From Fidelibacterota bacterium (GTDB lineage: Bacteria > Fidelibacterota > Marinisomatia > SCGC-AAA003-L08 > TS1B11): a stretch of 64,000 bases of DNA. The notes beneath the pieces were generated by a model. It saw nothing but the letters and a program-made list of their open reading frames with translations. It searched no databases and was not told the origin of the DNA. Location: positions 2,115,642 through 2,179,641 of the forward strand of contig CP070638.1 in assembly GCA_020354025.1 (NCBI GenBank). The letters are read 5' to 3'. The stretch's first letter is position 1. Each line of letters begins with the position of its first letter. Below are positions 34,281 through 49,057 of the stretch, one piece after another. The translations under genes and the position numbers were made by a program.

Positions 34281-34334
34281 GCGCACCACGCGCACCAGGC
34301 GCACCAGGCGCACCAGGCGCACCACGCGAACGAC
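34281..34334 (+). repeat. 9-bp tandem repeat array (GCGCACCAG/C), copy 1
   Basis: Six perfect 9-base units: GCGCACCAC, three GCGCACCAG, GCGCACCAC, then the variant GCGAACGAC. A five-unit array of the same units, ending in the same variant, lies inverted at 46584-46628. The array is immediately followed by a promoter-like pair with the same geometry at both loci. Confidence 0.85.
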
Positions 34335-34358
34335 AAACCTCCACGGATGACGTATATT
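34330..34358 (+). promoter_or_regulatory. Promoter-like pair after 9-bp array, copy 1
   Basis: ACGACA (34330-34335), 17 bases, TATATT (34353-34358) resembles a sigma-70 -35/-10 pair (4/6 and 5/6 matches to the consensus). The second array at 46.6 kb has ACGACA-N17-TATATT in the mirror orientation, although most of the spacer differs. This would start a transcript at about 34365. Confidence 0.5.
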
Positions 34359-34364
34359 CGGACG

Positions 34365-34555
34365 TTATGCTGACGCTGTCGCCATATTGCCCGTCCCCTT
34401 TGTGTGTGGACCACTTATGCTGCAATCGCCGACTGTGGACGCTGGGGGGGTACACCCCTGGGCGGTATCATACCTCCCGTCGGGAGGCGTGGTACAATCG
34501 TGGTATTGTCGTGCAACTGGGCTGCGGGGCCCGCGGGCGCCTCCCGGGCCTTTTT
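34365..34555 (+). ncRNA. Candidate structured non-coding RNA ending in an intrinsic terminator
   Basis: Between a promoter-like pair and a terminator, about 190 bases contain consecutive hairpins: GGGGT..ACCCC (34447-34458), a long stem with arms GTATCA/TGGTAC and CCTCCCG/CGGGAGG (34465-34495), an overlapping ACAAT/ATTGT stem (34494-34509), and a GC-rich terminator stem. No convincing protein is encoded: the open frames across it have no family and odd composition. Known RNA classes (tmRNA, SRP RNA, 6S, T-box) were considered and none clearly fits. The boundaries are inferred. Confidence 0.4.
34528..34555 (+). terminator. Intrinsic terminator
   Basis: GGCCCG (34528-34533) pairs with CGGGCC (34545-34550) and is followed by five T. 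It lies 560 bases upstream of the next plus-strand gene, so it ends a transcript that begins inside the intergenic region. Confidence 0.65.
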
Positions 34556-34564
34556 GGTATTTTT

Positions 34565-34763
34565 CATTTTGCATCTGGTCTCTCGTCGGGGAAAAACTTG
34601 AAAATGCAGAATTTTAGTGGGATTTTGCGGAATTTTGGCGTCTATCTCTGGCCCGCTTTCTATTCTTCGGTTTTACATTTCGCATTTTTCAAACTGCGTC
34701 CGCTTCTCATCGGGAAAAAACTTCAGGATGTGGAATTTTGTATGGATTTTGTTGAATTTCGCG
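34565..34763 (+). repeat. Imperfect direct repeat, two copies about 111 bases apart
   Basis: Copy 1 (34565-34640) and copy 2 (34676-34763) both start CATTTTGC/CATTTCGC, then share CGGG(G)AAAAACTT, a GAATTTT, a GGATTTTG and a GAATTT(T/C)(G)GCG segment in the same order. The AT-rich block is unlike the GC-rich sequence around it. No coding potential was recognised. From 34764 to 35118 nothing further is seen apart from the upstream region of the gene at 35119. Confidence 0.55.
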
Positions 34764-46141: not shown

Positions 46142-46477
46142 GATAGGCTCCTCGTTACATGCTCAAATTGTAGCTAACAACGGCGGAGGACAAGGATTTC
46201 GTGCGTTGGACCAACAGCCGGCATAGTCGGAGGCAACGCCTACGGCGAGCCTGGCAGAAGCAACAAGCCGAACCAGCACGGCTAAGGGTTCACAATTGCA
46301 CCTGAAACACCCCATGATAGCCTCTCGATAACCCCACCAAAGCCTCTCAAAAGCCCCACTGAAGGACCGCGAATGGATAGCTAAAACCTTTCAAATGGTT
46401 CACTCTCGCCGACGGGGGGGCGAGCCCAGGTAGTACTGCGGAAAAAAACGTCCCGGTCTCTAACCCACCCTTGTTTT

Positions 46478-46518: not shown

Positions 46519-46559
46519 TCTTCTATTGGTATCCTTCTCTATTTTCAAAGAGCGGGGGG

Positions 46560-46588
46560 AATATAAGGATTTTTAGGAGTGTTGTCGT
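46560..46588 (-). promoter_or_regulatory. Promoter-like pair after 9-bp array, copy 2
   Basis: On the minus strand ACGACA (46588-46583), 17 bases, TATATT (46565-46560), the same elements and spacing as at 34330-34358. Most of the spacer sequence differs between the two loci, so the end elements and their distance are what is conserved. Confidence 0.5.
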
Positions 46589-46628
46589 TCGCGTGGTGCG
46601 CGTGGTGCGCCTGGTGCGCCTGGTGCGC
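46584..46628 (-). repeat. 9-bp tandem repeat array, copy 2 (inverted)
   Basis: On the minus strand: two GCGCACCAG, two GCGCACCAC, then GCGAACGAC, the same units and the same closing variant as the array at 34281-34334. Confidence 0.85.
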
Positions 46629-46801: not shown

Positions 46802-49057
46802 ATGAAAGCTAGAGCCGCTATTCTGATCGGACTTGCGCTGCTTCTGGTCCCGTTATTTCACCTGGAGGCGCAAATCCCGGGTACACTATCATACCAGGCC
46901 TTTTTAAGCGATAGCCTAGGAGTTCCTAAAGCCGATGGTGCCTACACAATAACGTTTGGCCTTTACAATGTCGAAACCGGGGGTACGGCATTATGGACAG
47001 AGACCAAGGACCTGGAGGTTAAGCAGGGCCTGTTTTATACACATCTTGGTCCTTTCCCGTCCTCACTGCGCTTTGACCAGCCCTACTGGCTGGGTATCCA
47101 GGTGGGGAGTGAAGCGGAGCTAGCGCCCCGCATTCCCCTGACGAGCGTGGGCTACAGCTTCATGGCGCTGCGATCCGATTCGGCCCAGTATGCCCTACTA
47201 GCCGATTCGGCGCAGTATACAAAACAGGCGCTGCGATCCGATTCGGCGCAATTTGCTGTGCAGGCCGATACAGCGAAAGTGGCCACAAGTGCTCTGGCGG
47301 CCGCCGATCTGGCCGATGATGCCGTCACCAGCGGCAAGATTGCCGACGGTACGATATCAACGGTGGACCTGGCGGACAATGCAGTGACCCCGGCTAAGAT
47401 CGACACTACCGGCGCCGCCGCCGGGCAGGTCCTGGTGTATAACGGCGAAAGCCTGACATGGCAACCACCGCCCACCTCAGGCGGCAGTATCACCACCACC
47501 GAGCTGGCGGACAATGCCGTGACCAGCACAAAGATCCTGGACGGGGCGGTGACCACGGCCAAGATCCTTGACGGTGATGTGACCTCAGGTGACCTGGCGG
47601 ATAATGCCGTCACCAGCACAAAGATCCTGGATGGTGCTGTAGTTGCAGCTGACTTGGCGGACAATGCCGTTACCAGCGCAAAGATCCTGGATGGTGCTGT
47701 AGTTGCAGCTGACCTGGCGGACAATGCCGTAACCGGCGCGAAGATTACCGACGGTGCTATCGCTGGCGAGGACATCAGCGCCACCGCGGCGGTAACCGTT
47801 GCCTCACTCACCACTGCCCAAGTGGGTACCACCGATCCCGCTGCCCTGGAGCTGCGGGTGAACGGCACCAACGCGCTGCGTCTCGAGCCCCACTCAACCA
47901 GTCCCAATATCATCGGTGGTTACAGCGGCAACAGCGTGGGAGCCGATGTATATGGAGCTACTATCGGTGGCGGCGGTAGCGACCTGAGTACGAACCAAGT
48001 AACAAGTAATTACGGCACCGTCGGCGGTGGTAATAATAACATTGTTAACGGTGAGAGGGCCACCATCGGTGGCGGCCATGACAACATTGCTGATGGCTCG
48101 AGAGCCACTATCAGCGGCGGTAAAGCCAACCAAGCCAGCGGCTATAAGTCGTTCATCGGCGGCGGCCATGGTAACCAGGCCAGCGGGTGGAAAGCCACCA
48201 TTGGCGGTGGCAACGCAAATCTGGCCAGTGGCTGGAACGCAACAGTGCCGGGGGGTAATTCCAACGTGGCCGGGGGCGGATTCAGCTTCGCTGCCGGTCG
48301 GCGTGCGAAGGCAAATCACGACGGCGCTTTCGTCTGGGCCGATACTACCGATGAGGACTTCGCTTCCACCGCCGCCAACCAGTTTCTTATCCGGGCGTCT
48401 GGCGGTGTGGGTATCGGGACAGCAAATCCCGGCGCAACGCTGGACGTTGCTGGGAACGTACGAATACCGAATGACCAGTCTATCGCCGGGAATTCGGGTA
48501 ACGATATTGGCTATTTAGATATTGCCAAAGTCGGTACCAGCAACGAACTCATCATCGGTCATGGCAATAACTCTGATCTGCAGTTTGTCACCGGGGGAAC
48601 CAGCGGAATCCCAAGCATGGTCATCGCCAATGGCGGCAACGTTGGCATCGGTACGGATAACCCAGGAAGTGTACTGGACGTGAACGGGACGGCAAATATC
48701 GGCGGTTTGTTCACAACTGGTGGTGGGCATGTGGTGAACGTAGTATCAAAAACAGAGAGCTATACGACCCTTACGAGCGACCGGATTATTCTGTGTGCTA
48801 CACAGGACCCTGACTTTCCGGTTACAATAACTTTACACTCCGCTGTTGGTGTCCGCGGACAACTGCTCAGTATCAGGAATATTAAGCCTTCTGACCCTGT
48901 GACCATCACTCCCAGTGGCGGGGAGACCATAGATGGAATGTCTGAGGTGGAGATCTATTTAAGTGCGTATGACGATATTACGGGTATTACCCTTGTGAGT
49001 GACGGAGCGGGTTGGTGGATCATATCCGATGTAGCAGTGCTGGGACAGGCTATGTGA
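46802..49057 (+). CDS. Secreted repeat protein with YadA-head-like motifs
   Basis: 751 residues with a signal peptide (LIGLALLLVPLFHLEAQ). Residues about 25-125 are a beta-rich domain (IPGTLSYQAFLSDSLG, LGIQVGSEAELAPRIPLTSVGYS). Then come alanine-rich repeats, residues about 169-330, with the motif DLADNAVTSxKILDGAV, and about 385-500 repeats of the ATIGGGxxNxASG type, as in the heads of trimeric autotransporter (YadA/Hia-like) adhesins. A short GIGTxNPGxxLDV segment recurs twice, then a final beta-domain (about 645-751). There is no YadA membrane anchor at the C-terminus, so export or anchoring differs. It likely forms a surface fibre; the ligand is unknown. It precedes a sorting-domain protein by 97 bases. 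Ribosome binding site GGGAGG. Confidence 0.82.
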   Translation: MKARAAILIGLALLLVPLFHLEAQIPGTLSYQAFLSDSLGVPKADGAYTITFGLYNVETGGTALWTETKDLEVKQGLFYTHLGPFPSSLRFDQPYWLGIQVGSEAELAPRIPLTSVGYSFMALRSDSAQYALLADSAQYTKQALRSDSAQFAVQADTAKVATSALAAADLADDAVTSGKIADGTISTVDLADNAVTPAKIDTTGAAAGQVLVYNGESLTWQPPPTSGGSITTTELADNAVTSTKILDGAVTTAKILDGDVTSGDLADNAVTSTKILDGAVVAADLADNAVTSAKILDGAVVAADLADNAVTGAKITDGAIAGEDISATAAVTVASLTTAQVGTTDPAALELRVNGTNALRLEPHSTSPNIIGGYSGNSVGADVYGATIGGGGSDLSTNQVTSNYGTVGGGNNNIVNGERATIGGGHDNIADGSRATISGGKANQASGYKSFIGGGHGNQASGWKATIGGGNANLASGWNATVPGGNSNVAGGGFSFAAGRRAKANHDGAFVWADTTDEDFASTAANQFLIRASGGVGIGTANPGATLDVAGNVRIPNDQSIAGNSGNDIGYLDIAKVGTSNELIIGHGNNSDLQFVTGGTSGIPSMVIANGGNVGIGTDNPGSVLDVNGTANIGGLFTTGGGHVVNVVSKTESYTTLTSDRIILCATQDPDFPVTITLHSAVGVRGQLLSIRNIKPSDPVTITPSGGETIDGMSEVEIYLSAYDDITGITLVSDGAGWWIISDVAVLGQAM

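Follow-up and report, generated by a model that had tools for sequence, protein, structure and literature searches.

Two copies of an array-headed unit in the window

The window, the whole 64,000-nucleotide stretch analyzed here, belongs to a Candidatus Neomarinimicrobiota genome assembled as a single contig of 3.40 Mb. It holds two copies of an intergenic unit that opens with a short tandem array. The copy at 34 kb comprises the following features.

34281..34325, + strand: 9-bp tandem array of five units, GCGCACCA(C/G) = GCGCACCAS
34326..34334, + strand: diverged end unit GCGAACGAC, overlapping the −35-like ACGACA (34330-34335)
34353..34358, + strand: −10-like TATATT, exactly 17 nt past ACGACA
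34359..34393, + strand: putative start region with moderate per-position conservation and a shared ATG at 34367
34394..34581, + strand: variable middle, of a subfamily with a CCTCCCGTCGGGAGG hairpin and 11-nt CGTGGTACTAT-type repeats
about 34525-34551, + strand: private terminator-like stem inside the variable middle
34582..34636, + strand: type-1 3' tail with predicted curvature (CYCGTCGGG palindrome, A-run, phased GAATTTT-GGGATTTT-GGAATTTT)
34706..34759, + strand: second, diverged type-1 tail (copy O2150374+)

Matches to two successive array units occur seven times in the window against 0.08 expected, and none of 100 shuffled sequences reached seven. The sequence-only reading had described the array joined to ACGACA-N17-TATATT at this place, together with an inverted copy at 46.6 kb; its coordinates proved correct, the arrangement is far beyond chance, and the second copy has the same array end, spacing and −10. 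That copy is organized as follows.

46593..46628, − strand: four array units
46560..46592, − strand: end unit GCGAACGAC, ACGACA, 17 nt, TATATT
46540..46553, − strand: boxA-like GCTCTTTGAAAATA at the putative transcript start
46286..46425, − strand: type-2 tail of 10-11 bp phased GGGGCTTTT units (curvature z = 2.3)

Two further claims held in part. The 34-kb unit had been credited with a clean intrinsic terminator. At about 34525-34551 there is indeed a bulged GC stem with TTTTT after it, but a terminator scanner gives it no score and sister copies have no U-run there. The unit does carry the promoter-like pair but is larger than was described, with a conserved tail of predicted curved DNA at its end. 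Intergenic spacers (e.g., window 34490-34520 and L161:2079-2160) are rich in short tandem units with a period of about 11 nt (CGTGGTACTAT) and in TTTTGCATTTTGCA runs. A 60-bp tandem repeat at window positions 47586-47745 lies inside a 751-aa open reading frame (ORF; 46802-49057) for a repetitive surface-type protein.

A dispersed family with a sigma70-type promoter signature

Across the host genome, the two-unit pattern has 86 matches, compared with one in a reversed control. From the pattern matches and DNA stretches fetched around them, we assembled about 45 copies, which lie on both strands and are 160 to 500 bp long. A modular element dispersed through the genome has the window array at its 5' end; the array is not part of a single small-RNA gene.

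Arrays range from one to seven units, and the copies have a common order of array, GCGAAMGACA, 17-nt spacer, and −10. GCGAAMGACA is near-invariant in the 67 promoter-positive copies, in part because the motif served to collect them. A TAnnnT hexamer lies exactly 17 nt past the array-end ACGACA in 43 of the 45 host-genome copies, and in 67 of 75 (the window copy at 34353..34358 among them) when relatives are included, against a background of 1.6% at each other offset. TATATT is the commonest form (51 copies), the others being TAAATT, TATCTT, TAGATT, TACCTT, and TATAAT; this variation stays within what is expected of a sigma70 −10. The central spacer is unconserved, at near 0.1 to 0.3 bits. Hexamers, fixed 17-nt spacing, and free spacer together form a sigma70-type promoter signature, which suggests promoter activity. 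About 35 nt past the −10 are moderately conserved, and the variable middle comes next.

Many arrays without the promoter pair, the outcome that the sequence-only reading had named against itself, did not appear, and its proposal of a self-contained unit that brings its own promoter, with an array of variable length as the upstream element, is supported at the sequence level. Since the copies are paralogous, P-values in this work overstate independence. A REP-like palindrome (CTCTCC..GGAGAGG..GGGTGAG) often precedes the units, before an array-starting TTTTC (e.g., G000:C1 2544340-2544390).

RNA structure and reading frames in the variable middle

That the unit resembles no named RNA class agrees with an Rfam search, in which no family matched above the gathering score and nothing relevant appeared at either of the two thresholds used. 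The further proposal, that the locus makes a separate, structured small RNA ending at a terminator of its own, is not supported. Folding of the window transcript is no more stable than that of dinucleotide shuffles (z = −0.03); the RNAalifold covariation terms are unfavorable in the two subfamilies analyzed, giving no covariation support; and the terminator-like stem is private to the window copy, not a shared feature. A multicopy family of small-RNA genes, in which a common promoter serves RNAs that each have their own targets, would fit independent intergenic units with a promoter, hairpins in the middle, and conservation of the first ∼25 nt. A boxA-like motif (GYTCTTTGA) is also found in 11 of 75 copies against 1.2 expected, about half of these near the putative start. 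Set against the unfavorable covariation, the ordinary folding energy, and the lack of a shared terminator or Rfam match, we consider such a family unlikely.

The shared ATG lies ∼8 nt past the −10 in most copies, and in one copy it begins a real ORF of 144 aa, so that leaderless small proteins were considered as the product. ORFs from this ATG vary in length between 2 aa and more than 300 aa, with the conserved 3' tail occurring in all three frames relative to it; a conserved ORF was rejected on this ground, and we judge the leaderless reading extremely unlikely. An rRNA promoter was likewise rejected, the array being absent upstream of 16S.

Units end in DNA predicted to be curved

A conserved type-1 tail (GTCGGGAAAAAACTT..GAATTTTGGTGGGATTTTGCGGAATTTT) follows 39 of the 45 host-genome copies on the same strand, 116 to 459 bp downstream (median 172). 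It consists of CYCGTCGGG, an A-run, and CTTYARAATGC, then GAATTTTG-GTGGGATTTTG-CGGAATTTT. Conversely, 38 of 40 tails in this genome have an array upstream, and the other two have an N-masked stretch there. One apparent orphan tail was rejected as its locus is N-masked. A second tail type, seen for example in the 46.6-kb copy, differs in sequence, yet it too is built of 10-11 bp phased units.

Curvature was predicted with a dinucleotide wedge model; a phased-A-tract control behaved as expected. In this model, 54 type-1 tails have a mean curvature of 65 degrees over 53 bp, compared with 24 ± 11 degrees for random stretches. Within 244 kb of host-genome sequence, made up of the stretches around array matches, 57 curvature peaks exceed 60 degrees, and 34 of the 40 tails lie on one. 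Other tail types, picked by eye, are also modeled as more curved than shuffles (z 2.0-3.9). By this prediction, the tail ranks with the most strongly curved sequence in the sample.

Arrays stand before phage-derived packaging genes

One array of the host genome sits in a cluster of head genes, between those for terminase large and portal (E-values: portal, 4e-92; terminase large, 1.7e-76; protease, 1e-54; major head, 1.7e-75). This cluster, at ∼2061-2071 kb (G000:C1; L173:5121-15299), comprises terminase small-like, terminase large, portal, protease, and major head genes; host genes flank it and no tail genes were recognized. It is possibly a domesticated phage or a gene transfer agent (GTA).

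In five related genomes (G186, G187, G188, G189, and G190) a four-gene operon that ends in a terminase-small-like gene is headed by an often degenerate array, ∼1 kb before that gene, with a −10-like hexamer 17 to 18 nt past the array. The terminase-small-like gene matches a small-terminase PHROG in G186, G187, and G189 and Pfam Terminase_5 in G190. The operon (L207, L208, L209, L210, L168) encodes a 75-aa membrane protein, proteins of 106 and 86 aa, and the terminase-small-like helix-turn-helix (HTH) protein; in G186 and G187 it adjoins host metabolic genes, not head genes.

Another host-genome array precedes a lone terminase-small-like gene, encoding the 144-aa protein, and a phased tail follows. 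This protein has only an N-terminal HTH in common with terminase-small proteins and gave no phage match. An internally deleted copy of the unit, at 1176081, encodes 44 aa and has a weakly curved tail (z = 2.0). Arrays directly before protein genes in the host genome were seen just at the portal gene and at the 144-aa gene with its deleted copy.

These arrangements recall the pac site of phage SPP1, which contains direct repeats and spans small-terminase promoters, and whose terminase is modeled to select intrinsically bent DNA (PMC4737164). By this analogy, the units might be dispersed pac-like sites of a domesticated phage, with an HTH small terminase recognizing direct repeats, promoter, and bent DNA; arrays do precede terminase-small genes, units do end in predicted curved DNA, and the lone terminase-small-like copy has both array and tail. 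The wedge model, though, found no strong curvature near the operon arrays of the relatives, and the pac-like reading is weakened because these arrays lack a strong bend. Moreover, no particles or packaging are known here, and for known GTAs the use of discrete packaging sites had not been demonstrated (PMC6854486). We hold pac-like sites to be very improbable. The same low standing applies to a wider conjecture, in which a domesticated phage packaging system of this bacterial family would use a set of co-regulated sites, the ∼45 units of array, promoter, and curved DNA spread over the whole chromosome. An HTH small terminase may recognize these sites as packaging starts, and transfer of host DNA would then begin at defined positions.

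Distribution, placement, and turnover

A 19-mer of the family is present in named Candidatus Neomarinimicrobiota genomes. Of the 245 genomes searched across the phylum, eight gave matches. All eight belong to the window's GTDB family, which is represented by 11 genomes, and the other 234 gave none; one of the eight, G184, has just one match, with one mismatch, and in G190 one of two matches lies in a coding region. Two sequences labeled Planctomycetota also carry it: the metagenome-assembled genome VRUF01, with six copies, and CP070790.1 (L101), with a single array copy and TATCTT at 17 nt. This occurrence may reflect mislabeling, chimerism or contamination, or transfer. IMG/VR contains three exact 19-mers, none with TAnnnT at 17 nt, and the tail was not found there; phage and plasmid collections gave no DNA match to the family.

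Placement fits standalone units: a divergent upstream gene accompanies 33 of the 45 host-genome copies (P = 0.002), and 27 of 45 point toward the 3' end of a gene on the opposite strand (not significant). The unit was looked for beside chosen neighbor genes in three congeners; it persists at proS (G185 and G187) and groEL (G187) and is absent beside ∼10 others, where the element-free neighborhoods mostly show synteny on one side only. A copy also persists at the 2443392 locus in a different genus, and a short VRUF01 match may show the same for the 313046 locus. In the three species compared at proS, the array, the promoter, and the first nucleotides are retained at one end of the unit and the tail at the other, but the middle and the unit number vary.

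Such turnover bears on whether the units are purely selfish, MITE-like or BOX-like repeats, whose promoter and tail would be ends for copying by a putative trans-acting enzyme and would have no host role. Many dispersed copies, modular middles, the internally deleted derivative, absence beside most orthologous genes tested, and the 27 copies facing a convergent gene end all accord with this. On the other hand, terminal inverted repeats are absent from the three copies examined, which have internal hairpins or none, and no copy carries a transposase. The proS and groEL copies are kept across species with both ends conserved, the promoter signature is stricter than a mobility signal would need, and several genera retain the same promoter at a phage-derived operon. 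Pure selfishness is possible, though doubtful.

Proposed explanation

We favor, with moderate confidence, a modular interspersed repeat family confined to one Neomarinimicrobiota family, in which a regulated promoter common to phage-derived packaging genes has spread as non-autonomous copies. This builds on direct observations of copy number, anatomy, fixed spacing, tails, distribution, turnover, and the link to packaging genes; promoter activity, regulator, origin, and mobility are read from sequence and are put forward conditionally. Each copy would be an independent intergenic unit comprising the 9-bp array and a sigma70-type promoter (weak −35 ACGACA, 17-nt spacer, TAnnnT), followed by a transcribed middle that varies between copies and, at the 3' end, a tail of curved DNA. 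A putative regulator would most likely bind the array units beside the weak −35 and so control RNA polymerase, and the number of units may tune the promoter's response. Since the same promoter stands before packaging genes (the small-terminase operon and the portal gene), that promoter is probably the source of the repeats, which would also be part of its regulon and would have spread as non-autonomous copies.

If the promoter is real, this uncultured lineage has a large group of closely similar transcription units under a repeat-tuned promoter common to phage-derived packaging genes, and interspersed repeats would be linked to a phage-derived regulon. Array-length tuning and curved-DNA ends would then be directly testable across natural copies.

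Comparison with known systems

In the open-access literature searched, we found analogues and no published description of the family. Correia elements, which are promoter-bearing MITEs, have terminal inverted repeats, a feature not found in the present family. The two are alike as dispersed short repeats able to supply a promoter (PMC3049150). The direct repeats of Beggiatoaceae (TAACTGA) also form short arrays at many intergenic sites and are proposed regulator-binding sites; they lie just upstream of start codons and are proposed to act post-transcriptionally, whereas the present arrays lie upstream of a −35/−10 pair and are mostly unattached to a gene (PMC4679880). The SPP1/SF6 pac site shares direct repeats, a small-terminase promoter, and intrinsically bent DNA with our units but is a single site in a phage genome, compared with ∼45 chromosomal units known from sequence alone (PMC4737164).

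BOX elements of Streptococcus pneumoniae, organized as boxA-boxB(n)-boxC, are likewise short modular intergenic interspersed repeats with variable unit number, are enriched near convergent gene ends, and have been proposed to move non-autonomously (PMC3049150). The present family has the same plan of interspersed intergenic units with common end modules and a variable middle and unit number. It differs in its fixed-spacing sigma70-type promoter signature with its own array, in its tail of predicted curved DNA, in having no conserved RNA fold that we could find, and in sequence and phylum. Although it lacks the inverted repeats of a MITE and the structured RNA of BOX, the family works like promoter-bearing modular interspersed repeats of the BOX and Correia kind.
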